Under the pieces are notes generated by a model that did not search any database, had not been told where the DNA came from, and saw only the letters and a list, made by a program, of their open reading frames with translations. This document shows, one piece after another, positions 10,870 through 57,534 of a DNA stretch of 64,000 bases. The stretch lies in NCBI GenBank assembly GCA_015179125.1, contig WHVA01000488.1, forward strand, positions 19,300-83,299, in the 5' to 3' direction. A program made the position numbers and the translations under genes. Source of the DNA: Gautieria morchelliformis (taxonomy: Eukaryota; Basidiomycota; Agaricomycetes; Gomphales; Gomphaceae). Each line of letters opens with the position of its first letter. Positions within the stretch are counted from its first letter, which is position 1.

Positions 10870-12350
10870 GAGGTCCTGGAAAAATGGTAAGTATGCAGGG
10901 GAACTGATCACGTCACCGTCGAAAACTGTTGCTGCGATGTCATCATCGCAGGAACGCCTCGCGACAGGCCGCGAGGAGAGCCGGCAACGGCTCTGTAGGT
11001 TCAGAGCGTTGGAGGACACGATGGCTGAGTTGTGCCGCTACTTACGCAACCTACGGCACAACTCACCCAACGACGACGACCTGGCCAAACCGCCGTGGAG
11101 CATGCTCACGCCAGCACCCATGTGAGTCAAACTGAATGGGGACACGCCCTCGCTGAGGGATGGCGTGGAACCAGTCGCGCAGCCGGCCAGCCCAACGCCA
11201 TGGCCTGGCCGCAATGAGGTTCCCCCATGGCGCATCCACGCCCCACGACGTCCCCAGGCTCCCCAGGCTCCCCAGGGACAGGCCGGTCACACTGGGCGTG
11301 ACACGCCTGTCGACGCCGCCTCCACCGTCCCCATCGCGCATCCGCGCTCCAGGCCGCCCCAGACGGCTGCAGACGACGGCACACACCACCTGGTGTGTGC
11401 ATCCACCCTGTGGAATGCCCAGGAGCCCCCCAGGATCGCTGGGAACCCGTGTAAGCCGCCGTCAGCGCGCAGCGTCATCGGCGCATCCCAGCTGCCACCC
11501 CGGCCGCCCTGCTCGGTCCCAGCCAGTGGGACCGGTGGTGCACGCTCTAAGGAGCGTGCATCCACCTCTGGGGACCCTCCAGAGGTCCCCAGAGCTGGCC
11601 AGAAGTTGTGCACGCCGCACCTGGCGCGCAACGACATCTGCGCGCCCCAGGTACCGCCCCGGCCGCCCCAATCGCTCCCAGCGAGTGGGAACGGTGGTGC
11701 ACGCTCCTTAGAGCGTGCATCCACCTCTGGGGGCCCTCCAGAGGCCCCCAGAGTCGGCCAGACATCGCGCACGCCGCGCCCGGCGCGTGGTGTCATCCGC
11801 GATCGCGCGCGGCCCCAGGCGCCGTCCCTCAAAAGGCCCCCAGAGCGCTCCAGGCGCCACGCACGCCGTGCAGGCCCCTCTGCCCGCGCTTGCCGCCACC
11901 TGCGGACCCGCCCCCATCCAAGGCGGGTCCCGCGCGGTGCCCCATGTCCCCAGCACATACGCATGGTGCTGGGGCACCTCCGCGCGCGACAGGACCGGCC
12001 CGCCGCCGCGTCCACACTCGCGGGCGGCCTCTGGAGCCTCCCTGTCCATCCCGCTCGTTCCCAGCGAGCGGGAATGGTGCGGCATGTCCTGTGGGACGTG
12101 CCCCCACTGCTGGGGGCCCTCAGGGATCCCCCAGAGGCCGTCGGGCGCCACGAAAGCCGCGCCCGCAGCGCTGCTCCCCCCGCCCCCGCTCGCAGCCCCC
12201 GTCAGCGGCGGGTGCCACGTGGTGCACCGGGTCCGCTGCTGGGGCTCCGTGGCGCATGCCAGGGCCGACCCACCGCAGCGTCCGCGTTCGCGCGCGGGCC
12301 CAGAGGCAGTCCTGGCCACCATGCTCTCTCCTGTCAAGGGGGGAGGGTGC
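10870..12350. repeat. Serial-hairpin DNA, GC-rich (element H1)
   Basis: From about 10935 the sequence is a run of adjacent inverted repeats with short loops. Examples are cctcgcgacaggccgcgagg (about 10957), gctctgtaggttcagagc (about 10990), a stem agttgtgccg/cggcacaact (about 11030-11066), ggtcccagccagtgggacc (11515-11533), long stems at 11534-11566 and 11693-11725, 27-base palindromes starting 11567 and 11726, ggacccgcc/ggcgggtcc (about 11903-11930), a stem gcggtgcccc/ggggcac near 11930-11980, tcccgctcg/cgagcggga (about 12050-12073) and gcccccactgctgggggc (about 12100). It includes a two-copy unit with a 159-base period (11534 and 11693). No convincing protein is encoded; the long open frames follow from GC richness. 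It ends in a purine tract (caaggggggagggtgc, 12335-12350) that abuts the next LTR as a polypurine tract would. Confidence 0.7.
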
Positions 12351-12818
12351 TGTAAGGGCAACCCTGGCTAGTCGTGGAGATCACACTACCACACAACTGA
12401 CAAGGGGAAATCCAAAGTATGTATAAATGAACAGAGCATACAAGAGAGGGGGTTCTCACCTGACAAGGGGAAATCCAAAGAGAAAAGTCTAAGGACCCCC
12501 AATGTCAGCGAGCCCGTATTATACTACGCTGCGCAACCAGGGACAACGCTTGGCACCCGCCATCAACCCTGCATCCCCCTGACCCTTGATCGACCCTTGA
12601 TGCCACCTATTATGCGAGTCGCTTGATTTCCGACACTGTTCCGGGGCGGAAGTCGGAAATCGGAGTGGAACTGGCAAGGCGAACGGAACTGGTGGAAGTT
12701 CTCCCAGAAGCGGAATCGTTCCCGAAAGCGGATGCGGAGATGGAATCGGAACCGGAAGCGGAGTCGGAACTGGGTGTGGTGTCGGAACTGGAAATGGAAA
12801 ACAGGGTGTCCCCTGACA
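12351..12818 (-). mobile_element. 3' LTR of chromovirus C1
   Basis: A 468-bp LTR. Read on the minus strand it runs TGTCAGGGGACACC to GGTTGCCCTTACA. It differs from the 5' LTR (18093-18560) at a single base (aaag versus aacg). It is preceded on the minus strand by a purine tract, gctagagggggggtgatg (12819 onward), the element's polypurine tract. The stop codon of pol lies inside this LTR. Confidence 0.92.
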
Positions 12819-16729: not shown

Positions 16730-17905
16730 TCACCCGCTGCGTGTCACAAAATCCGATGCATCTTCCGCTTCCGGTAGACCATGTTCCGCATTTTCGGAAA
16801 GCTCTTCCGCAGTGGGCACTCCGTTTATGTCTGCAAGCGCGAGGAACTCTGGAAGGATCTCGAGTTTCTCCTCTGTGGTCATAAGCCGGATATCAAAGGC
16901 TTGGGGGCACTCGCGAGCGTAGTGGCCTGGTTGTCGGCAGCGGAAGCAGGTGATAGTTCCGTGGCCTTTTCCGCGCATGCGGTCAACATCCATCGGGGCA
17001 GGGCCACTCTTCGAGGGAGGAGGGCTATGGTTCCTAATAGGAGCAGGCGGAGCAAGCATCGGAAATAATTTCCGTGTGGGAATGAATGCGCTTCCGGGTT
17101 TTGGCACAGGTTGAGTAGGACGAGCGGAACTGCGTGTCGTGTTCCGACTCGTCTCCACGAAGGCCTCATTTGCCTCCCTGTTCCGAGAAACCTTCTGCGC
17201 AGCTTGGTACCACCCTTCCGGATCATCAAAATCCGGAGCTCCATCCCCAAGCAGCGCAACTTGGTTCTGGAGCGTCGGATCAAGTCCTCGTCGGAATTTG
17301 ATGACGATCGTCTTGTCGTCGTCATATTCCGCAAGGTCGATGAGCTCCTGGAAGCGATCGATGTAGTCATCGACCGGATCTTTGGCCTGGTACCAGCTCG
17401 TCCCCTCGAGCTTTGTAAGGGCTGTGAGCTGCTCATTTTTCGGGCAGAACTGGTCGGAAAATGTTTTCTCGAACGCGTCCCAGTCCCGGAAGTAGTTCCC
17501 CTTGCCCTTTGCTTCATGTCGGATCACCTTGTTTGCAAAACGGGCTGCGCGGTCCGATTTGAAAAAGGACAATGTCCAGTGAATCCGAGCCTGGTCGTTC
17601 GGAAAGAGGTCTCCGACAATTGCGAAGTAGATGCTGCATGTGTTGAAGAATGCGCGTCCCTTCTCCCGATCTCCGTCAAAGTCCGCCGGAGTTGCGGGTT
17701 TGACCTTTGCTAACTTCGCGGACATCCTCTTTTCCGCTAGTTCCGCTTTTCCGAAATCCGGATCATCCAGCATTTCATTTCCACCACCTTGTGGAATATC
17801 TAACTTAGCCAAAATCGCTTGTAAGGCTGTTTCAATCGCGTCGGTCTTCATCCGGTTCCGCGTCAATTCCTCCTCCATATTCCGAAGACGATCGTCCGGA
17901 TCCAT
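16730..17905 (-). CDS. Gypsy C1 gag with CCHC zinc knuckle
   Basis: The frame is open from 18103, but that start codon is TTG in the LTR. The first ATG is at 17905 (MDPDDRLRN), giving about 391 residues. The middle shows the typical gag capsid-like helical region (DGDREKGRAFFNTCSIYF, WTLSFFKSDRAARFANKV, WDAFEKTFSDQF, DDYIDRFQELIDLAEY). The C-terminal knuckle is CFRCRQPGHYAREC (C-x2-C-x4-H-x4-C). The frame stops at 16730 (FVTRSG then TGA). Between gag and pol (16521-16730) a different frame encodes a conserved linker (ERRLPKRYVVAAT) that belongs to the pol N-terminus, so Gag-Pol needs a frame change. Gag packages element RNA in virus-like particles. Confidence 0.88.
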   Translation of the reverse strand: MDPDDRLRNMEEELTRNRMKTDAIETALQAILAKLDIPQGGGNEMLDDPDFGKAELAEKRMSAKLAKVKPATPADFDGDREKGRAFFNTCSIYFAIVGDLFPNDQARIHWTLSFFKSDRAARFANKVIRHEAKGKGNYFRDWDAFEKTFSDQFCPKNEQLTALTKLEGTSWYQAKDPVDDYIDRFQELIDLAEYDDDKTIVIKFRRGLDPTLQNQVALLGDGAPDFDDPEGWYQAAQKVSRNREANEAFVETSRNTTRSSARPTQPVPKPGSAFIPTRKLFPMLAPPAPIRNHSPPPSKSGPAPMDVDRMRGKGHGTITCFRCRQPGHYARECPQAFDIRLMTTEEKLEILPEFLALADINGVPTAEELSENAEHGLPEAEDASDFVTRSG

Positions 17906-41484: not shown

Positions 41485-41560
41485 TTTTCTATCTTACTTT
41501 GGATCCCCCTTCACCAGTTCACTGCTTGAGTGTAGAGCATCTGCCTAGGTTGCCCTTATA
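41485..41560 (+). mobile_element. LTR D end fragment
   Basis: About 76 bases ending ctaggttgcccttata, the reverse complement of the first 75 bases of solo LTR D1 (gggggatccaaagtaagat...). It ends where the AT-rich MITE begins. It may be what is left of an LTR belonging to gypsy G or to a separate insertion. Confidence 0.6.
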
Positions 41561-43099
41561 AACACTGGAGGCATAGTAAGGGCTTTTTGGTCTGAAAAAC
41601 TGTTCAAAAAACTGTAAAGATTTTCCAAAAAATTTTAGTGTTTTTTATGTAAAAAAAACTTCAATAAAATTTCAGGTTTTTTAAAGCTTTCTCATTGTGG
41701 AAAAAAGAAACTGATAAAAAACCCATACAAAACCTCAATTTTCAGAGAGTTTCTTGATCCATAAAATTCTGAAAAGACTTTGAATTTTTCTGTGTTTCTT
41801 TAAAGTTTTTTTTTTTTTTTACAATTTTATCACACTTTTTTGGGATTGAGAAAGCTTTAAAAAACCTGATATTTTATTTTGAAGTTTTTTTACATAAAAA
41901 ACACTAAGGGCACGTTTGGTAACCAGACCACGAAAATGGATTTTGGTGATCTCTCACCAAAAAGTGAAGAAACCACGATTTCGCAATCTTGCGAAATCTT
42001 TTTCAATTTTGGGGTGTTTGTTTTGGAACCTGTTGAACTAAACGTAAAACTGTGGTGTTAAACACAATTCTAAAGTTCAATCAGAGATTTGACTTTACAA
42101 GCACACGCAAGCTTCGAGACTATTTTAACGGAGAACCCAATTAAGAAATTATACTCCAGTGAACAATCAGAATCGATATTGGTACAGAAGTGTAGCAATA
42201 GAGATTTAACTGAACACGTGTAGTTCTCAGATTGTGCAATACTTTGTGAGGTCAAAGAATGTTATTAGGCATCCAAGGGTCCAGATACTTTAAGGGGGAA
42301 AGCTACTTAGAGTCTTAGGACCGCAGGTCGAGTGAATTAAAGACAACAATAATCCCCAAGACGTGAAAAGATAGTTCTGCGCTTGAACTGTTCCTCAGTT
42401 CAAGTATTTCACTATTCTCATGGCTTTTCTGGTTTTTCCAACTCAACAAACGTAGGATATTAACTCACTTACCCTGAGTTAGGTTAATATCTGCAGTGCG
42501 TTGATTGATCAAGAAAGATCAATTACTCAAAAGGCTATTAACCCACTTAACTCAGAGTTAAGTTAATAATCTATTGCATGAATTGAATAACTAATAACCA
42601 AGTCTATTAGATCACTGCTCAGAGTGGCGTCTAATCGTACAGGATTACTAATCAGTTACTCTTAGTAATGTTGCTGTTCGCAGCGCGGTTATTCAGAGCC
42701 TGCTGCAATTAAAATAGAGCACTCTTGTACTTCTCAGAGCCAATCAAAGTTGCTGCAATCTTAGACTGTAGCCAAGTCAGTGAGCCAGTACTTCGGTACA
42801 AAGCTGTGTTGAAGTCACACTTCAGTTACTCAAGGTATGAGTGGTTTGGGTGAAAGATGATTGATTGCTTCACTGCTAAAACTGCAGGCTATTTATACTG
42901 CATCTATCTAGCTTATGTAACTACTGCTAGGAACCTTGTAGAGGCTTCTACTACTGTGAAGAACCTTGTGGAAGCTTAGAGAAGCTTCAGGAAAGGTTTG
43001 GAAACTATTGGAAGGCTGTGGAAGGTTCTATTGCTATATTGGGTTAAAGTCACAGCTCTGTGACAGTAAAGCTAAGAGTACTAGAGGCCGGTGAACCGG

Positions 43100-43700
43100 C
43101 GTGGCCCTTGTCGAAGATGTTCGAGATACTTGGCCAGGCTCTGTTTTATTTTATTTTTTTAAATCAATTATGTACACCAACGACCAAGGGCCGCGCCAGC
43201 GCCCTTGGTCGAGGACATTGGAATAGAATGGTTTATTTTGTCATCGGTATTCCCCTGATGAGAGCTTTCATTGGCTCAAAACAGCTGCACATCCGCCTCC
43301 CCTAGCAACCCTCTTCCCTAGGTAACAGAGCCTAGTCTTCGGAGACGGGAACAGAGGAGCTCCAGAGCAAGGGCCACGCCGGTTCGTCGAAGATGTTCGA
43401 GATACTTGGCCAGGCTCTGTTTTATTTTATTTTTTTAAATCAATTATGTACAATGACCAAGGGTCACGCCGGCTTTGCCGGCATGGCCCTTGGTCGAGGA
43501 CATTGGAATAGAATGGTTTATTTTGTTGTCGGTACTCCCCTGATGAGAGCTTTCATCAGCTCAGAACAGCTGCACATCCGCCTCCCCTAGCAACCCTCTT
43601 CCCTAGGTAACAGAGCCTAATCTTCAGAGACGGGAACAGAGGAGCTCCAAACCAAGGGCCACGCTGGCTTCGCCAGCACGGCCCTTGGTCGAGGACATCA
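43100..43700. repeat. Two-copy tandem duplication with GC hairpins inside Harbinger
   Basis: A unit of about 270 bases (gaagatgttcgagatacttg ... agaggagctcca) occurs at about 43105 and about 43388. Between and beside the units are hairpins with the stem ccaagggc/gcccttgg and changing inner words: gcgccagc near 43190, a ccggctttgccgg core near 43468 and a gctggcttcgccagc core near 43665. Short frames within the unit (KMFEILGQALFYFIFLNQLC) are not convincing genes. Confidence 0.75.
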
Positions 43701-44160
43701 GAATAGATGGCTTTACTTTGAGATACTTTGTCGTAGTTTCAAATACACACGTTGTAGGCGATGAAGTACGACGCACCCAGAAAAAGATATATCATTTAAT
43801 GGGAGAAAGGGATTGATTGAAGAAGTGCGAAGCGTATCGTACCATGGGAAGGTGCCCCTGTGCTGCCCCTCTAGCACACGACGTCACCGCGTGAACATTA
43901 GAGCAGTACGCGTACTGTATAGAGGTCGAGATAAGATAGACGCCATAAAACAGGTCCAAAGTTTACTAATCAGCTTACAATTTTGTGAAGATATACCTTT
44001 TTCAGCAAGGAAAGGATTATGAAATACATCAATATATCTTTATACGGCGCAGAAAACTCCCATCCACGACATCAAATACAAAGAAACATCATGTCGGATC
44101 TATATCTTCAGCCCTTAGAGAGCCCTTGTCTTCGACAAGGGAATGTAAGAAACTCCCACG

Positions 44161-47719: not shown

Positions 47720-48432
47720 TGTTATGCCACTCAACCATCTCTGCAATCCCCACACCACTTCCGCACCACCTCCAACGCTATTCCGCAACATCTGCAACAT
47801 CCGCAACCCTTGACCCTCAACCCCTTGTTCTTTCTACACCCCTTACAACTCCATTCATCAACCCTCCATACTCAACCCTTAGCGCAGCAAGATACCAGTT
47901 CTGATCCATCAGGAGTTCCATTTGTTCCACTGTCTATTAGACTTACATGCCCCTTGTTCTTTTGCCTATTGTTCTTGACACTACCCTGCACCCCATTGTA
48001 GTTCCCTTGTTCCACATTAGTTATGTACTCCATTTTATAGTCACTTCCACTCCCACCAGAATTGCTTAGTCCTGCCCCATTACTTGTTGTTCCAGCTCTT
48101 TGTATAAAACCCACTCATGTATGCTCTCCGATTCTGCAATCAGATAATTAACTTCAATATGTGACTCCCTTCACATTACCTCCTGTTCTCAGCACAGCAA
48201 GTTTGCAAGACCTCTGTTCCTCTGTCTTACGAAATACTGTCTTCTGCCTCTTCTGACTTCCGACCTCTGACGTTCGACTTGGCTCAACCTTTGAATCCTC
48301 CTCTTCCTCTGCCTCTTCCAACCTCCAATGTCAGTTCCAAAATACCTAGGACGATGGTTCATTGGGGGCACAACACATAAGTTGAAGCCACTGTCCTTTA
48401 GTTCCAACTTCTGGGATTCTTGATACATAACA
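47720..48432 (+). mobile_element. Solo LTR B3
   Basis: 713 bp, TGTTATGCCAC to GATACATAACA, TSD GCAAT at 47715-47719 and 48433-48437. It is more diverged from B1 and B2 than they are from each other but has the same landmarks (cctaggacgat, ttcattgggggc, cataagttgaagcc). It inserted in sequence of unknown type. Confidence 0.88.
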
Positions 48433-48437
48433 GCAAT

Positions 48438-48660
48438 CCAAGGGGCAAAGGTGAAGTCAGATAGGAACATGCATACTAAGGAGGAGGATTCGGTGGTATG
48501 GAAGGGAGAGGATAGCAGAGGGAAGAGTGACATAATGACAGAGAAGGGGAGAGGGAGAAAGGGGGAAAACAGGAGGTCATACCTGGACACTGACTGGCAT
48601 GGATCTGTGGCTGAAATTCAGGTTTGAGCCATATTCAGCAGCATGACACCATAAAGCTAC
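48438..48660. other. Spacer between LTR B3 and LTR E1
   Basis: Purine-rich on the plus strand (gagaggggagagggagaaaggg near 48540). No gene or repeat was recognised. Confidence 0.3.
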
Positions 48661-48849
48661 TGTAAAGGAGTAAACTTAGAGCCTTGTGGGTATCACAAGA
48701 GCAGCAGAGATCGACCAAGCTGTGGGATTCTGATGCTACGTAGTGACGGTTTACAAGGTGAGTTAAGCTGGGGAACCGCCGGCGGTTCCCACGCACTACT
48801 ATACAGTGGGGTCTTGTGGACCCCCCCCCTCTGAATCCACTTCTTTACA
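48661..48849 (-). mobile_element. LTR E1
   Basis: A 189-bp LTR with plus-strand ends TGTAAAGGAG and TTCTTTACA. It contains a hairpin ggaaccgccggcggttcc. The twin at 54704-54916 shares atgctacgtagtgac and actatacagtggg. It is followed by ccctccccttct, whose complement is a purine tract, so on the minus strand this is a 3' LTR preceded by its polypurine tract. Confidence 0.75.
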
Positions 48850-49847
48850 CCCTCCCCTTCTAGAAGGAACCCACCGGGTGAGCCAAAAGAAGCACCCCTT
48901 TGACCTCGAGAAAGGGATGGGTGTGTGGACCAGGTCATTCTGATGTACCTCAGAATAACCCCAGATCTGATGCCTCAGATATGACATGAATGCCATGATG
49001 CCATGACATGGCATCATGGCAGATGTGTTGGCATAGTGCCAACACATCTGTTCTGGTGTTCATCATTCTGAACACCAGTGGTTGTGCCGGCTTTGCCGGC
49101 ACTCCCCAGTTGTAGTGGGTGGTTGGTTGGTTTGGGGGCATGGTTCTTCCCCCTCTGAACCGAAACCCACGGTTGAGAACAACTTGAATGCTCTCAAACC
49201 CACAGACAGGTGATGTCTGTGGGGAACTGAAAAGCCAATGATCTAGGCATCATTGGTGCCTAACTGCGAAGGATAGCAGTTATGCAGCCATAGGACCTGG
49301 CAGGGCCCTATGCAAGGAATAACCAAGCGGTCAATAATTGACTGCTTTGTGACATGATGTCACCCGTAGGACTTGGAGGAGCCCTACGCAATGAAATTAC
49401 CGAAGCGGTCAATACTTGACCACTTCATGGCCAAACAGGCCAGCGGCTGCATACAGCCACTGGGCATTGTGTCCATGGACCTGGACACAACGGATGTGCA
49501 TTTGTGTGCACGCCAGGCATGTGATGCAGGCAGAGGCACACTTTCTGACGATCTGTTGGATCATCTTGCAGCTGTCCATGGGGGCAGCCGGTTGCTCTTG
49601 GGGTTCATTTCTGAACCTCACGTCCTGTTTGACCAGGACGGCTGGCAGTGGCATTCACTGCTTGTCCCGCTCCTTTTGTCACAGGTCTTCCACGTCGTGA
49701 CCACATTCATTAGCTGCGGACTGTCATGCATGAATGGCGGTGGCTCCGCAGGGGGCCGGCAATGCGGCGGTTGCAAGATATGCCACAACCAGGAGCTTCT
49801 GGGGACCTTTGGTGGGTCCCCAGGTGCAGATGCACACCCCTTGGGGC
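48850..49847. repeat. Serial-hairpin DNA, interior of LTR element E1
   Basis: Nearly every base belongs to a short inverted repeat with a small loop, one after another: atctgatgcctcagat (about 48964), cagatgtgt/acacatctg (49020-49050), ctggtgttc/gaacaccag (49053-49078), gtgccggctttgccggcac (49084-49102), cccacagac/gtctgtggg (49199-49223), ccaatgat/atcattgg (49235-49256), taactgc/gcagtta (49261-49282), catagg/ccctatg (49289-49312), aagcggtcaa/ttgactgctt (49325-49347), tgacatgatgtca, cgtagg/ccctacg (49365-49388), aagcggtcaa/ttgaccactt (49403-49425), tggccaaacaggcca, gtgtcca/tggacac, gtcctgtttgaccaggac and ctggggacc/gggtccccag. It is AT-neutral here, unlike 10935-12345. The plus-strand open frame 49373-49850 overlaps it but resembles no protein. 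Confidence 0.75.
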
Positions 49848-50336
49848 TGTCAGGGGACACCCTGTTTTCCATTTCCAGTTCCGAGACCACACCCAGTTCC
49901 GACTCCATTTCCGACTCCGCTTCCAGTTCCGATTCCATCTCCGCCTCCGCTTTCGGAAATGATTCCGCTTCTGGGAGAACTTCCACCAGTTCTGTTCGCC
50001 TTGCCAGTTCCACTCCAATTTCCGACTTCCATCCTCGGAACAGTGGCGGAAATCAAGCAACTCACGTAATAGGTGGAATCAAGGGTCAATCAAGGGTCAG
50101 GAGGTCATGAGGATGCAGGGTTGATGGCGGGTGCCAAGTGTTGTCCCTGGCTGGGCAGCGTAGTATAATACGGGCTCGCTGACATTGGGGGTCCTTAGAC
50201 TTTTCTCTTTGGATTTCCCCTTGTCAGGTGAGAATCCCCCCTCTTGTATACTCTGTTCATTTATACATACTTTGGATTTCCCCTTGTCAGCTGTGTGGTA
50301 GTGTGATGTCCACAACCAGCCAGGGTTGCCCTTACA
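49848..50336 (+). mobile_element. 5' LTR of gypsy C2
   Basis: 489 bp, TGTCAGGGGACACC to GGTTGCCCTTACA, the same family as LTR C1 in the opposite genomic orientation, with extra TTCC(A/G)ATTCCG repeats. It is followed by gcagaaaagtctctcccc exactly as in C1. The 3' LTR of this copy is absent. Confidence 0.88.
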
Positions 50337-51915: not shown

Positions 51916-54703
51916 GTGGAGATCCAGACGACAGATACTGCGGAAGTCAAATCCGGACCCGCCCTTGTCGATTGCGGGGCCACTGGTCAGTTTATAGACC
52001 GGGACTATATGGAACGGAACCGACTGACCACGCGGAAGTTGCAACGTGCAATCCCGGTGTTCAATGTGGATGGAAGCCCCAATGAGGCAGGGTCCATCAC
52101 GGAGATAGTAGACACGATTCTCCGCTATGATGGGCACACAGAACACACTTCCTTTGCAGTGACCAGCCTGGGGAAGCAAGACATCATCCTTGGGTTTACC
52201 TGGCTCCAGGAGCACAACCCGGAGATCAATTGGCAGACTCGGAAGGTGCTGATGAGTCGGTGCCCAGCCAAGTGTCACATGTGCTGGTCGGAAATGCGGA
52301 AGGAGCGCCAGGAGCAGCGGAAGACCGAACGGCTCATACAGACATGTCGTTCTGGCCCCATCCACTGCTTGCAGAAGAAGACTCGGAAGCAGAATTTGAT
52401 CCGGATCCCACTTCCAATTCCGATTCCGATTCCGATCCCGATGTCATCCGACTCAGCCCGGAAGAGACTCTGGTGGAGGGGGAATGCTTGCTGTATGTAA
52501 ACCTTCCACCGGAAGTGGAACACATCCACGCCACTGGAAACATTTCGCAACGCCTTGCTGAAGCCTCCAAGAAGCATGATAAAGCGGAGGTGGAAATTCC
52601 GGAGTACCTGCGGGAGTTCGAGGATGTCTTTGCCAAGGAGTCATTTGATGCCCTGCCTCCACGAAAGCTGTGGGACCATGCCATCGAGTTGGAGCCCGGG
52701 TCAAAGCCCACCAACTGCAAGGTCTACCCGCTGTCACCCAAGGAGCAGGTAGAGCTCGATGCATTCCTTGCGGAAAACCTCCGTACAGGGAGGATCCGCC
52801 CCTCTAAGTCACCCATGGCATCTCCGGTGTTCTTCATCAAGAAGAAGGACGGCTCGCTCAGGCTTGTGCAGGACTACCGGGCCTTGAATGCGATCACGAT
52901 CAAGAACCGATACCCCATCCCACTCATTTCCGAACTAATCACACAACTCCGCGGGGCAAGGTACTTCACTAAGCTAGATGTCGCTGGGGCTTCAATAATG
53001 TTCGGATCCAGGAGGGAGACGAGTGGAAGGCCGCATTCCGCACCAACCGAGGACTCTTTGAGCCACAGGTCATGTTCTTTGGCCTCACCAACAGTCCGCC
53101 ACATTCCAGATGATGATGAATGACATTTTCCGTGACATGATAGCAGAAGGGGTTGTCTGCGTCTACCTCGATGACATCCTCATCTTCACAAAAACAATGT
53201 CCGAACATCGGGAAGTCGTGTGGAGAGTGCTGGAACGGCTCCGGCTACAACCTGTGTCTCAAGCCGGAAAAGTGCGAATTTGAGCGGATGCGGATGGAGT
53301 ATCTTGGGGTGATTGTGTCGGAGGGAAAGGTGAAATGGACCCAGTCAAAGTTTCCGGTGTATCGGATTGGCCTGTGCGCGGAACAAGAAGGAGGTCCAGT
53401 CCTTCATTGGGTTTGTCAATTTCTACCGGTGGTTCATCAAGGACTTCTCCTGCCACGCCGTGCCCTCTTCGACCTCACCAAGAAGGAGGTTGGGTGGCGG
53501 TGGGGAGAGCGGAACAGGCCTCCTTTGACAAACTCAAGGAGCTGATCACTTCTGCCCGGTCCTGATCTTTCCCGACGACTCTCGCCCTTATCGAGTCGAG
53601 GCGGATTCTTCCGACACAGCTACCGGAGCGGTCTTGTTGCAACAGTCATCGGAAGATGATGGGGGGTGGCATCCGATTGCCTTCTTCTCTAAAAGCCTTA
53701 GTCCGGTCGAGCGGAACTATGAGATCCATGACAAGGAGATGCTGGCAATCATCCGAGCGCTGGAGGAGTGGTGACACTTCCTCAAGGTGCTCTATGCCCA
53801 TTTGAGATCTGGACAGACCACAAGAACCTCGAGTACTTCCGCACGTCTAAGAAGTTGAACCGATGACAAGCACAGTGGTCCCTACACCTGTCCCGGTTGA
53901 CTTCATGCTCCACCACTGCCCCGGCCGCACCATGGGCAAGCCCGATGCCCTATCCCGCCATGTGGATCATGGAAGCAGAAGCGGAGACAACTCTGATATG
54001 ACACTTCTCCACCCAAGTCTCTTTGCAATCCGCACCCTCGAAGGAGTGACTGCGGTTGGGGCGGAAGCGGAAATGCTACGGGACATCCGGAGGCAGTACC
54101 GGAATGGAGAGAAGGAGGAGTCGGTGGTGAAGGCGGTGGAGGAACTTCGGAAAGGGAGCTCACGGTCTGTACGGGCGGCGGAATGGTTGGAACGTGATGG
54201 GCTGCTCCACTTCAGAGGCAAGGTCTATGTTCCAGGTGGGGCGGACCTCCGCCGCCGCATTGTGTCCCAGCACCATGACACATGGGTCGCTGGGCATGCT
54301 GGCAGGTGGAAGACACTGGAGTTAGTGGCTCGGAACTACTGGTGGCCTCAGATGTCCCGCTACATTGGACAGTACGTGAAGACATGTGACCTTTGTCTCC
54401 GAACCAAAGCACAACGACATCCGCCCATCGGAGAACTTGTTCCACTCCTGATTCCAGAATCCCGCTGGGACACCATCAGTGTTGACTTCATTGTTGAACT
54501 CCCAGAGTCTCATGGCTACGACGTGATCATGAACGTTGTGGACTCGGTAAGCAAGGTGTCCCACTTCATTCCGACGCACACGACGATCACAGCCCTCGGA
54601 GCGGCCCGCCTGTTCCTTGCACATGTCTGGAAGTTGCATGGGCTCCTGAAGCAAGTTGTTTCCGACCGAGGTCCGCAGTTTGTCGCGAAACTGACTCGGG
54701 AGC
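51916..54703 (+). pseudogene. Gypsy C2 pol, frameshifted and cut off in the integrase
   Basis: Protease with DCGATG near 51975, RT with YLDDIL (about 53163), RNase H remnants near 53600-53750 and integrase (HHDTWVAGHAGRWKTLELVA, CDLCLRTKAQRHPP, SVDFIVELPESHGYD) to LTREL at 54703. Frame breaks occur near 52400, 53000, 53100, 53290, 53540 and 53780. The last integrase part, chromodomain and 3' LTR are missing because LTR E2 begins at 54704. The copy is much older than C1. Confidence 0.88.
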
Positions 54704-54916
54704 TGTAAAGATGACGATCTTTGACCTTGTATCACAAGGGCACTGCAGACCTTGACCAAATAGTGGTATTCTGAATGCTACGTAGTGACAGTGTAAGGTT
54801 AAGATGCGATGGGAACCGCTGGCTGGTTCCCATGCATAAACTATACAGTGGGTCCCTAAGGGGCCCACTGGGATTATGTAATAACTAGAGTACATGTATG
54901 GTATCTAGGTTATTTA
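54704..54916 (-). mobile_element. LTR E2
   Basis: About 213 bp beginning TGTAAAGATGACG on the plus strand. The far end is near ggttattta at 54916, with the terminal CA changed to CC. It contains hairpins gggaaccgctggctggttccc (one base mismatched) and cagtgggtc/ggcccactg. It is followed by ccccctccccct, the complement of a polypurine tract, so it is a minus-strand 3' LTR. Its twin is at 48661-48849. Confidence 0.7.
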
Positions 54917-54951
54917 CCCCCTCCCCCTCTATAGACAACTATAGGGGCCAA

Positions 54952-55983
54952 CTATGACTCATAGAGGTCATCCATGATGGAATCCTCTAGAGTGGCCGAT
55001 ACAATGATGTCGTCGTCATACGGGGCCAGTGGAGCATGTGACTCCTCCAGGGGCACCTCCGTGTCCACGGTGGTGATTGGGTGAGGCTGTTCTGCCTCGC
55101 CACTAGCGGTGGGTTCCACGTGCTCAATGGGGCCAGCATCCTCGTGGAGCATGGCCTCAACGGCTGGATCCTCAGCCTGAGGAGGGGGCCCGAAGCGCGC
55201 CAGCTCCTGGTCGAGCTGAGCGTGAGTGAGAGGTCGTGGCACCGTGGCTCTCACGTGGCTGGTCTCAAGGACCTTTTGTTGGCCCTCACGGGCAGCGGCA
55301 CTGAATGCTGCACCAGTGATGCTGCGTTGAACATAATGTTCAATGCGTGCCACTCGCTTGCAAGTGACACCCACGTAGCGGGCCAACCATCTCGCGATCT
55401 CGGCGAGCGGGATGTCGGGGCCAGATCGGCCCCCCATGGGGTATGGGCCCGTGATGGACAGCCGCAAGCTGGTGCTCTGCGGCGTCAGGACTTCCCTGGC
55501 ATCGACAAGGCCCGACCATTGGTCGGTCGAGCCGAACAGGTCGAGCAGCCTCGCCCTGAGAGGTGATGTGACCCCTTTGACCCGGGGCGCCAGGGGCTTC
55601 AACCACATCCAGACGTCCATGTCGTCTAGGTTGAAGGTGCCATCCGCGTTGTCGTGGATGGCTGATGGGATTCCTTTGGGGTTGTGTATCCAGCCCCTTA
55701 GGATGGCAGTGATGTCGTGCAGGGTGCCACCCGCTATCACTAGACAATCCCTTTTTGGATTGCGAGCGCGTTGTTCGCGCTCGATGCATTTGAATATGCC
55801 GATCATCTCGCACGTGCGCGTGAGTTGTGGCGTTTCTTTTGCCCGCACTAGGAGTTTGACAAAACGTGGGTCGTCAAGCGGGCAGATGTCGTACCATTGA
55901 GTATGACGTTGTTGGGCCTTCCCTACTGGTCGTGGTAGGAGGCCCGTCTCGGAGATTGGTGGATCTCCGAGTGGGATGATCAT
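54952..55983 (-). CDS. E2 element ORF3, unknown function
   Basis: 343 codons from ATG 55983 (MIIPLGDPPISETGLLPRPV). Conserved-looking blocks are WYDICPLDDPRFVKLLVRA, EMIGIFKCIEREQRARNPKR, DCLVIAGGTLHDITAILRGW and DVWMWLKPLAPRVKG. The C-terminal third is Glu/Pro/His-rich. It resembles proteins that I believe recur in high copy in mushroom genomes beside LTR-type repeats; no catalytic domain is apparent. It is the last ORF before the polypurine tract of E2. Its start overlaps the ORF2 stop in an ATGA. No disabling change is seen. A gag-like or nucleic-acid-binding role is only a guess. Confidence 0.55.
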   Translation of the reverse strand: MIIPLGDPPISETGLLPRPVGKAQQRHTQWYDICPLDDPRFVKLLVRAKETPQLTRTCEMIGIFKCIEREQRARNPKRDCLVIAGGTLHDITAILRGWIHNPKGIPSAIHDNADGTFNLDDMDVWMWLKPLAPRVKGVTSPLRARLLDLFGSTDQWSGLVDAREVLTPQSTSLRLSITGPYPMGGRSGPDIPLAEIARWLARYVGVTCKRVARIEHYVQRSITGAAFSAAAREGQQKVLETSHVRATVPRPLTHAQLDQELARFGPPPQAEDPAVEAMLHEDAGPIEHVEPTASGEAEQPHPITTVDTEVPLEESHAPLAPYDDDIIVSATLEDSIMDDLYES

Positions 55984-56080
55984 TCCCTCCCCGGGTAGGG
56001 AGGGTGAACTGTCCCCGCCGGTGGAGGCAGGGCCACGCCAGGCCCAATGTACTGGGCCTCGACCTGTGCTATCCGCCGTT
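55905..56080. repeat. Hairpin cluster at the ORF2/ORF3 junction of E2
   Basis: Adjacent stems: gggccttccc with ggaggccc (about 55915-55946), ctcggagat/atctccgag (about 55948-55971), gggatgatcattccc (55972-55986), a stem ccctcccc/gggaggg (about 55985-56005) and aggcccaatgtactgggcct (about 56039). The ORF3 start codon lies in the loop or stem of the gggatgatcattccc hairpin. Confidence 0.6.
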
Positions 56081-56330
56081 GAAGGGTGGGGTCGTTGATT
56101 GTGTGCGACGGTGACGCCGCCAGGTATGCGCTGATCGTGCTTTCCTTCTCAATGGCTAGCCCATTGATGGTGTTGGGGGTGCCGTGCAATTTCTTGTGCT
56201 TTTTCTTCGGCTGCTCTGCCAGCCGTTGTGCCCTCCCCGGGTCGTACGTCTTCCAGACGGACGAGTCGGACTCCCATCCATCCAGGACGCCGTACGCAGT
56301 GTCGGAAGGTGCGCTCTGCCCTTCCGTCAT
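55980..56330 (-). CDS. E2 element ORF2, unknown function
   Basis: About 116 codons from ATG 56330 (MTEGQSAPSDTAYGVLDGWE); the frame is open back to the ORF1 stop. It has a SSVWKTYDPGRAQRL block, a Lys-rich patch (PKKKHKKLHG) that could be a nuclear-localisation or RNA-binding signal, a helical stretch (TLQRRIAQVEAQYIG) and a Pro-rich end. The stop overlaps ORF3 in an ATGA arrangement. The three ORFs could also be one gene in which introns or frameshifting join the frames. Confidence 0.45.
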   Translation of the reverse strand: MTEGQSAPSDTAYGVLDGWESDSSVWKTYDPGRAQRLAEQPKKKHKKLHGTPNTINGLAIEKESTISAYLAASPSHTINDPTLQRRIAQVEAQYIGPGVALPPPAGTVHPPYPGRE

Positions 56331-56357
56331 TGTCGTTGTCGGGGTCGGCGCTGACAA

Positions 56358-56807
56358 TCAGGACGCTAGCCCCGATGTTGCGCGCGCCGGCAGGGGCGCC
56401 ATCGCACGAGGTGATGATGGCCTGGCCACTGGGTCCATGGTCGGGTCATGTCGTGGCCTTTTTGAGGCTGCGTGGACGAGGGTAACCTGGAGTTGGGCTG
56501 CGCTCAGCTGCTGCTCCAGTTCCCTTATTTTGGCGCGCTCGGTTTCGAGCACGTCGTCGTGGTCTTCAACCGTGCGTTCCAACTCCTTGACCTCTTTTTT
56601 GAGGTCATGGATGTCCCGGAGGAGCTCCTTGCGCGCGTCACGCGCGATGCCCCTTGGGAGCCATCCCCAGGCCGCATCGATGGTGTCGCCGATGTCTTCG
56701 TCCCGCAATTTGACCTTGCGGGTGCCTGTCGCAGGCCTTAGGTGCGCGGCGTAGTCTGTGCACGTTGCGCAATCGTCCAGGTGGATGATTGCGAGGGCAT
56801 CCTCCAT
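56358..56807 (-). CDS. E2 element ORF1 with coiled coil
   Basis: About 149 codons beginning MEDALAIIHLDDCATCTDYA. A CATC..Y segment is followed by TRKVKLRDEDIGDTIDAAWG and a long heptad-rich coiled coil (DARKELLRDIHDLKKEVKEL, LETERAKIRELEQQLSAAQL, about residues 60-110), suggesting oligomerisation as in gag-type proteins. A basic SKRPRHDP follows. The frame ends at 56358. It is the first ORF after the hairpin-rich leader (56765-56958). Confidence 0.5.
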   Translation of the reverse strand: MEDALAIIHLDDCATCTDYAAHLRPATGTRKVKLRDEDIGDTIDAAWGWLPRGIARDARKELLRDIHDLKKEVKELERTVEDHDDVLETERAKIRELEQQLSAAQLQVTLVHAASKRPRHDPTMDPVARPSSPRAMAPLPARATSGLAS

Positions 56808-56958
56808 CCCACGATCATCCAGTGCTCCTGGTCTACTGGAGCACGTAGGATATCTGCAGCCCCCTGTCTCGGGGCCGTTGTTCGTGTTGTGGACGTTGAC
56901 GGATCAACGTCCATCCCACCTTTGGGGGGCATCATCTTTGTGGGGATGATGGTGGTAA
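56765..56958. repeat. Hairpin cluster in the 5' leader of E2
   Basis: Stems gcaatcgtcc/ggatgattgc (about 56768-56791), gtgctcc/ggagcac (about 56822-56844), ggacgttg/caacgtcc (about 56891-56912) and catcatc/gatgatg (about 56930-56951) follow each other. The element's upstream LTR is missing, and the next bases belong to gypsy A. Confidence 0.6.
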
Positions 56959-56964
56959 CGGCAT

Positions 56965-57534
56965 AACGAGATATTTGAAGGACCCATATCGAGTTCGGAA
57001 GGCTGTCTTCCACTCTTGGCCGGAGGCGATCTGAACATTATTGAACCCGGCGTGAAGGTCGAATTTGGTATAGACGTTCGCACTTTTAAGTTGGTCAATA
57101 AGGCTCGGAATCAGTGGGATGGGGTACTTGTTCTTTCGGGTGATACGATTCAACCCTCGATAGTCCACACACATTCGCAGTGTACCATCCTTCTTCTTCG
57201 CGAACACAACAGGGGTGCCACCTGGTGATTGGGAGGAGCGGATAAATCCCTTGCCAAGCATGTCTTCGAGGTATTCGCAGAGTGCTTCTAATTCGCTGTT
57301 TGAGAGTGGGTATATGGGACCGTGAGGTGGTGTGCCATCGTTCTCGATCTCGATGGTGTGGTCATAAGGGCGATGTGGGGGCAGGTCTTTGGCTTTAGCA
57401 CGCGAGAAGATATTGAAGAAGTCATGGTACTCCTCTGGTACCACAGCCCTGAACATCTCTAACTTGTCCTTCGGTAGAGGGTTTTCGTGGAGGAGTGTGG
57501 TCGGGGCTGGTGCGTTGCCGACAGCGCGAAGCAA
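56965..57534 (-). pseudogene. Gypsy A reverse transcriptase fragment
   Basis: Minus-strand RT N-terminal half: FNIFSRAKAKDLPPHRPYDH, YPLSNSELEALCEYLEDMLG, DGTLRMCVDYRGLNRITRKN and [20 protein letters not shown], ending at FKYLVMP where E2 sequence takes over, just before the expected FGLTN. The upstream frame has a stop near 57540. The YxDD motif and everything after it are lost. Confidence 0.88.

Follow-up and report, generated by a model that had tools for sequence, protein, structure and literature searches.

In the basidiomycete Gautieria morchelliformis, two LTR retrotransposon groups with related ends, the non-coding element E and the coding Ty3/gypsy lineage F, are built as dense chains of short hairpins, coding parts included, which suggests that sequence is shaped by how the whole element folds or is copied. 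Hairpins are in excess both in the interior of E and in the synonymous codon choices of F, and their pairing has been kept up as the copies propagated. The reading we prefer, with a probability of roughly one half, is that LARD-like E and its relative F have been shaped into hairpin chains by useful folding together with template-switch events that re-perfect the stems. The window, which is the whole stretch of DNA analysed here, comprises 64,000 nucleotides of contig WHVA01000488.1, and its relevant features are collected in Table 1.

Table 1. Features of the E and F elements in the window (positions on the forward strand).
Feature	Position	Strand	Remarks
Second partial E copy, GC-rich middle of tandem hairpin modules	10913..12350	+ (sense = + here)	500-nt fold z down to -8.5
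3' LTR of E1	48660..48849	-	190 bp, ends TGTAAAG..TTTACA, matches both LTRs of copy L013
Polypurine tract of E1	48850..48861	-	sense AGAAGGGGAGGG, immediately upstream of the 3' LTR
Non-coding interior of E1, 3' part, hairpin chain	48850..49847	-	
Longest strictly perfect hairpin counted in E1	49020..49050	-	14-bp stem, 3-nt loop
Hairpin unit, copy 1	49289..49347	-	
Hairpin unit, copy 2	49365..49425	-	one A:T pair of the stem replaced by G:C, both sides changed
3' LTR of the F fragment	54704..54918	-	about 78% like the E LTR over 126 aligned positions; end placed by eye
F ORF3 region in hairpins	54952..56956	-	open frame 55983-54952

The copy E1 has the anatomy given by the initial annotation, namely an LTR with an adjoining purine tract and an interior truncated at 49847 by the start of a C-family LTR. 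The LTR reads TGTAAAGG..CTTTACA, and CCCTCCCCTTCT follows the LTR likewise in most of the copies listed. The orientation that the annotation had implied is reversed: the sense strand of E1 is the minus strand of the window, and the LTR is the 3' LTR, not the 5' one.

Perfect hairpins (stem of at least 6, loop of 3-12) number 19 between 48850 and 49847, while 200 dinucleotide shuffles yield 2.8 on average and never more than 7; at a stem length of at least 7 there are 11, the shuffles yielding 0.7 on average and at most 5. Stems of at least 7 cover 0.21 of this region; in 100 shuffles, the coverage averages 0.011 and does not exceed 0.058. The fold z is -10.8 on the plus strand and -13.6 on the minus strand, values reached by none of the 20 shuffles made for each. 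More than 25 hairpins had been announced, and the first 695 bases of the interior indeed form 26 helices when mismatches and G-U pairs are permitted; the statement that almost all bases fall into inverted repeats was too strong, as strict Watson-Crick stems cover 35% of the E1 copy (mean of 36% over 26 copies). Most stems measure 6-10 bp and the longest 14-15 bp, including a 15-bp inverted repeat at 48991-49021 whose arms lie 1 nt apart. The recurrence of one hairpin unit, in which CATAGG..CCTATG becomes CGTAGG..CCTACG, was confirmed.

An artefact of composition or low complexity could be suspected from the GC content of 0.66-0.77 in the middle of E, but dinucleotide shuffles and synonymous permutations hold composition and lose the hairpins, and the 3' part of E has an ordinary GC content (0.51 over 48001-50000), as originally described, so that this explanation is practically negligible. 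When the whole window was scanned in steps of 500 nt, the lowest z values all fell in the E and F regions, down to -12.7 at 48751-49750, -8.5 at 11251-12000 in the second E copy and -8.5 at 54501-57000 in F; the minimum elsewhere was -6.0 at 17001-17500. Stem coverage was 0.18-0.35 in E and F; elsewhere, in five stretches of the window and one LINE-containing locus, it was 0.03-0.09. Several isolated palindromes, partly AT-rich and not arranged in chains, occur at 41500-43750, together with a repeated motif with GC-rich hairpins that is possibly MITE-like.

The hairpin design had been taken for a family property on the strength of two independent regions. It is a family property, but the independence did not hold, since 10913-12350, which we assume to be the second region meant, is another copy of the E family; the independent case is F at 54704-56956, absent from the initial annotation. 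The E fragments at these two sites complement each other almost exactly: one covers element positions 1-1191, the other about 1197-2865. At this break each abuts a C-family LTR, in identical relative orientation (49847-49848 and 12350-12362, minus strand). They look as if one E copy had been split by a C insertion and later parted by an inversion, but the 5-bp duplication expected at the C insertion does not match.

In the genome (122 Mb in 1113 contigs), the 998 bp of the E1 interior match at least 81 stretches, with 40 of 819 candidates scored; by these matches the E family is large. Relatives with paired LTRs exist: nine two-LTR copies (L012, L013, L014, L018, L019, L023, L027, L047, and L049) of 2985-3601 bp were checked, all with TGTAAAG..TTTACA termini on their LTRs. 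Target duplications of 5 bp flank all nine (read off the flanking bases in L012 and L014) and all three solo LTRs checked (L038, L041, and L044), a count that leaves out the second subfamily (L010, L016, and L024). Because the two LTRs of each of the nine copies are 0.943-0.995 identical, these insertions are fairly recent; in the second subfamily, the identity is 0.87-0.89 over the alignable part. With one mismatch allowed, the pattern TTTACACCCTCCCC, which spans LTR and polypurine tract, occurs 981 times genome-wide and its reversed control 618 times, a difference suggesting that the E-type LTR group may have several hundred such junctions.

On the minus strand of the window, the order of the element is 5' LTR, leader, an interior of ~2.8 kb, AGAAGGGGAGGG and 3' LTR. 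The sense sequence downstream of the 5' LTR is CTTTTTTGAGATTCC, whose first letters are not TGG, the sole feature by which the primer-binding site was judged. The 2764-bp interior of L013 contains 36 perfect hairpins, compared with 7.5 after shuffling; the median distance between hairpin centres is 58.5 nt, and the GC-rich middle of this interior holds tandem repeats of roughly 160 bp each. The fold z is -8.2 for the leader, -0.8 for the LTR and +5.3 to -1.9 for flanking DNA outside the elements. None of the six longer interior ORFs of L013, the one copy searched, matched Pfam at E<=0.01; by the features tested, E is a non-coding LTR retrotransposon derivative of the LARD type. The E copy of L013 lies inside a long ORF (L013 2293-3948) that is LINE-like by eye, so E elements insert into other repeats. 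In the E copy of L028 (3959-4867), matches overlap internally (element interior 498/508), as a short tandem duplication within the hairpin chain would produce.

Alternatively, the hairpins might give rise to small RNAs or serve as decoys in RNA interference, a reading for which only the hairpin shape speaks. Two Rfam models, one of them a microRNA model, match in window 48600-49900, both far under the gathering score. The stems, mostly of 6-10 bp, are below the length of usual Dicer substrates, no Rfam family reached its gathering score, and positions 3600-7100 of L013 had no Rfam match at E<=1, the hammerhead of retrozymes included. We consider this reading very unlikely, and from the anatomy, processing of the hairpins to small RNAs is unlikely.

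The second bearer of the design, at 54704-56956, is 88% identical to L050, which together with the adjoining L051 is part of a Ty3/gypsy element with reverse transcriptase, RNase H, an integrase zinc finger and a Tf2-1-type SH3 domain (Pfam RVT_1, RT_RNaseH, and Integrase_H2C2 in L051; SH3_Tf2-1 in L050). Downstream of pol follow ORF3 of 678 aa (L050 548-2584, minus strand; window 54952-56900, minus strand), the purine tract and the 3' LTR. ORF3 found nothing above the cut-off in Pfam, and its predicted structure has a mean pLDDT of 41.9. At least 118 copies of it exist (118 of 1762 candidates scored). A protein search gave eight relatives, five from Gautieria morchelliformis (63-77% identity) and three JGI metagenome proteins (P0005-P0007, 43-44% identity), and no relatives of P0005 were found among viral contigs. 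Among the matches listed in the genome for the protein P0002, none is identical. The dN/dS of ORF3 is 0.21-0.49 in all six copy pairs; by this comparison of sequences, the coding DNA of F is under purifying selection. The LTR of the F fragment starts (54704-54708) at the end of the C2 gypsy ORF (53863-54708, by eye integrase-like), so the C2 and F elements are broken into each other.

The ends of E and F are related: the LTR middles of E and of four F-type LTRs are 75-81% alike, the purine tracts are of the same type, and the leader of L013 is 67% like that of F over 90 nt. Apart from the leader, no nucleotide similarity was found between L013 and the F pieces tested, so the same hairpin design stands on different sequences with related ends.

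In F, the hairpins lie within synonymous codon choices. All 11 pieces tested (ORF3 from three copies, pol from one) fold better than their synonymous-codon permutations, with z from -4.1 to -10.3 and none of the 40 permutations per piece reaching the real value. Eleven control pieces, taken from other elements and ORFs and including two that overlap, have z from -2.5 to +1.7; the one at -2.5, from C2 gag, also folds better than all of its 40 permutations. The permutation z varies with the draw, being -5.4 and then -3.8 for the RNase H/integrase piece. Permutation lowers the number of perfect hairpins in the coding DNA of F from 93 to 21.6; the real stems are mostly 6-7 bp long. They prefer the codon registers that set a free third position opposite a constrained one, with 44 and 31 hairpins against 18 in the remaining register (permuted 6.2, 8.5, and 6.9). 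The 5' region of F in L017 has fold z values of -7.0 and -6.4. Folding in excess of the codon and composition controls is present, as in genome-scale ordered RNA structure.

Pairing is maintained among the copies. In the 3' part of E, aligned over 27 copies, 97.6% of the cells of 226 pairs are paired, and nine of these pairs have changed on both sides, against 0-3 in slid structures, for example CCCACAGACA..TGTCTGTGGG vs CCCACAACCA..TGGTTGTGGG in L047 and L048. Among the variants of E, 59 shared and 181 private ones break pairs in stems, against 238 shared and 380 private ones in unpaired columns; shared pair-breaking variants are depleted in stems (odds ratio 0.52, p=1.2e-4), a contrast in which the helices come from a single copy per alignment piece, which favours conservation, and the counts are not independent because the copies are related. 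RNAalifold helices were set aside for this contrast, as they favour invariant columns. Private variants are probably for the most part post-insertion decay, and constraint or repair therefore seems to precede insertion. In F, synonymous differences number 60/493 in stems vs 157/826 outside, the helices again being drawn from one copy and favouring conservation.

Under selection on the folding strand, G.U mismatches are expected to be tolerated above A.C. Among shared variants, however, there are 26 G.U against 30 A.C; distinct mismatches within stems number 83 against 82, or 25 against 22 when present in at least two copies, and alignment-wide helices give 21 against 22 shared variants. An earlier version of this test, on fold helices of the plus strand, had 23 shared G.U against 12 A.C and was discarded as biased, since the fold admits G-U and omits A-C. 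Because G.U equals A.C in the symmetric tests, simple selection on one RNA strand fits poorly. Classical selection on the sense genomic RNA, giving genome-scale ordered RNA structure with no special mutation process, would account for the depletion of shared pair-breaking variants and for the strand lean of F, where 9 of 11 pieces have their lower permutation z on the sense strand and an energy test of sense against antisense leans to sense. This lean is partly explained by saturation, though, and the RNase H/integrase piece leaned to the opposite strand in a second run; with wobble unpreferred as well, such selection by itself is improbable.

Loops add a second kind of evidence. Of 60 distinct loop centres that differ between copies, five are exact in-place inversions (CTTA/TAAG, CCC/GGG twice, and AA/TT twice), of which CTTA/TAAG alone is unambiguous and the other four also equal the plain complement; none of the 60 is a plain reversal or a complement-only loop. 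Beyond this strict count, GT/AC is inverted in E and AAAGGC/GCCTTT in ORF3 of F. Counted per copy pair, inversions number 429, 35, and 2 in three alignments against 65, 3, and 0 in controls, figures overstated by nested centres and relatedness, for which reason the distinct count is preferred. The alignment of the E 3' part has no exact loop inversion in 5776 copy-pair comparisons (control 0). Inverted loops have been reported as a mark of template switching in yeast genes (PMC8604942) and RNA genes (PMC8794818). Alleles with two or more broken pairs differ in one arm vs both arms in 117 vs 96 cases at two differences, 20 vs 57 at three and 2 vs 106 at four or more, so that this test for template switching is overall at about chance level; the exception is the middle of E in subfamily A, with 49 vs 20 at two differences.

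A pure copying bias, in which functionless hairpins arise and are mended through template switching during reverse transcription (or replication), would explain mismatches without strand preference, two-sided pair changes, the inverted loops, and one design on the unrelated sequences of E and F. It agrees less well with the chance-level arm differences, with the E 3' part where inverted loops are missing, and with hairpins in coding DNA that is under purifying selection and has few synonymous differences in its stems; on balance it is possible, though we doubt it. In a bolder and still more tentative reading, the reverse-transcription machinery of the lineage may rewrite any sequence that it carries, coding or not, to perfect short hairpins by frequent template switching. 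If so, a retroelement genome would owe its form to its own copying enzyme.

The mixed explanation, folding plus template switching, is preferred because pairing is kept, wobble is unpreferred and loops are inverted, yet the one-arm test is at chance. According to it, E (full copies of 3.0-3.6 kb) would be mobilised in trans by lineage F, and the similar LTR, purine tract and leader indicate that F probably moves E. Both would have been shaped into short-hairpin chains, about one hairpin per 58 nt. Local folding of the packaged RNA or the single-stranded cDNA may help the element through compact packaging, protection and orderly reverse transcription, while template switching between hairpin arms in copying may re-perfect the stems. 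Strand-symmetric repair of this kind probably contributes, whether alongside selection on the folding of RNA or cDNA or in its place.

Several known systems share part of this design. Genome-scale ordered RNA structure in RNA viruses is pervasive folding, and E and F likewise fold pervasively beyond coding and composition; in contrast to the viral structures, they consist of perfect Watson-Crick hairpins, wobble is unpreferred, and a non-coding relative has the design too. LARDs and TRIMs such as Sukkula and Cassandra likewise have LTRs, a non-coding interior and assumed mobilisation in trans, and conserved RNA structure has been ascribed to those of plants (PMC7215508). The predicted fold of Cassandra is one super-hairpin of the two LTRs, whereas in E short local hairpins follow one another in series, and unlike the LARDs and TRIMs named, E has a fungal host and shares its design with a coding relative. 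Like Ty3/gypsy elements that carry an additional ORF downstream of pol, F has reverse transcriptase, RNase H, integrase, a Tf2-1-like SH3 domain and ORF3 before the 3' LTR; it differs from them by hairpins in synonymous codons and by an ORF3 without a Pfam family above the cut-off. Mitochondrial genes of nematomorphs contain coding palindromes that are perfect inverted repeats of up to 284 bp (PMC6649704); like the hairpins of F, these lie inside conserved coding sequence, whereas the stems of E and F are many, measure 6-11 bp and belong to a retrotransposon. Mutations by template switching are described as giving compensated stems and inverted loops in rRNA, microRNA and yeast coding genes (PMC8794818, PMC8604942), whereas in E and F they would concern the design of a whole element. 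Among titles and opening lines of abstracts, mostly from outside subscription journals, nothing of this design was found, and no LTR element whose coding region is threaded by such a chain. New here are the arrangement of the hairpins in series, the extension of this chain into the synonymous codons of a Ty3/gypsy relative and the lack of wobble preference. Within a single replication lineage, two sequences unrelated to each other, the one non-coding and the other constrained by its protein, have the same design, and because E and F share it, selection for folding and template-switch mutation become separable as causes of compensated stems.
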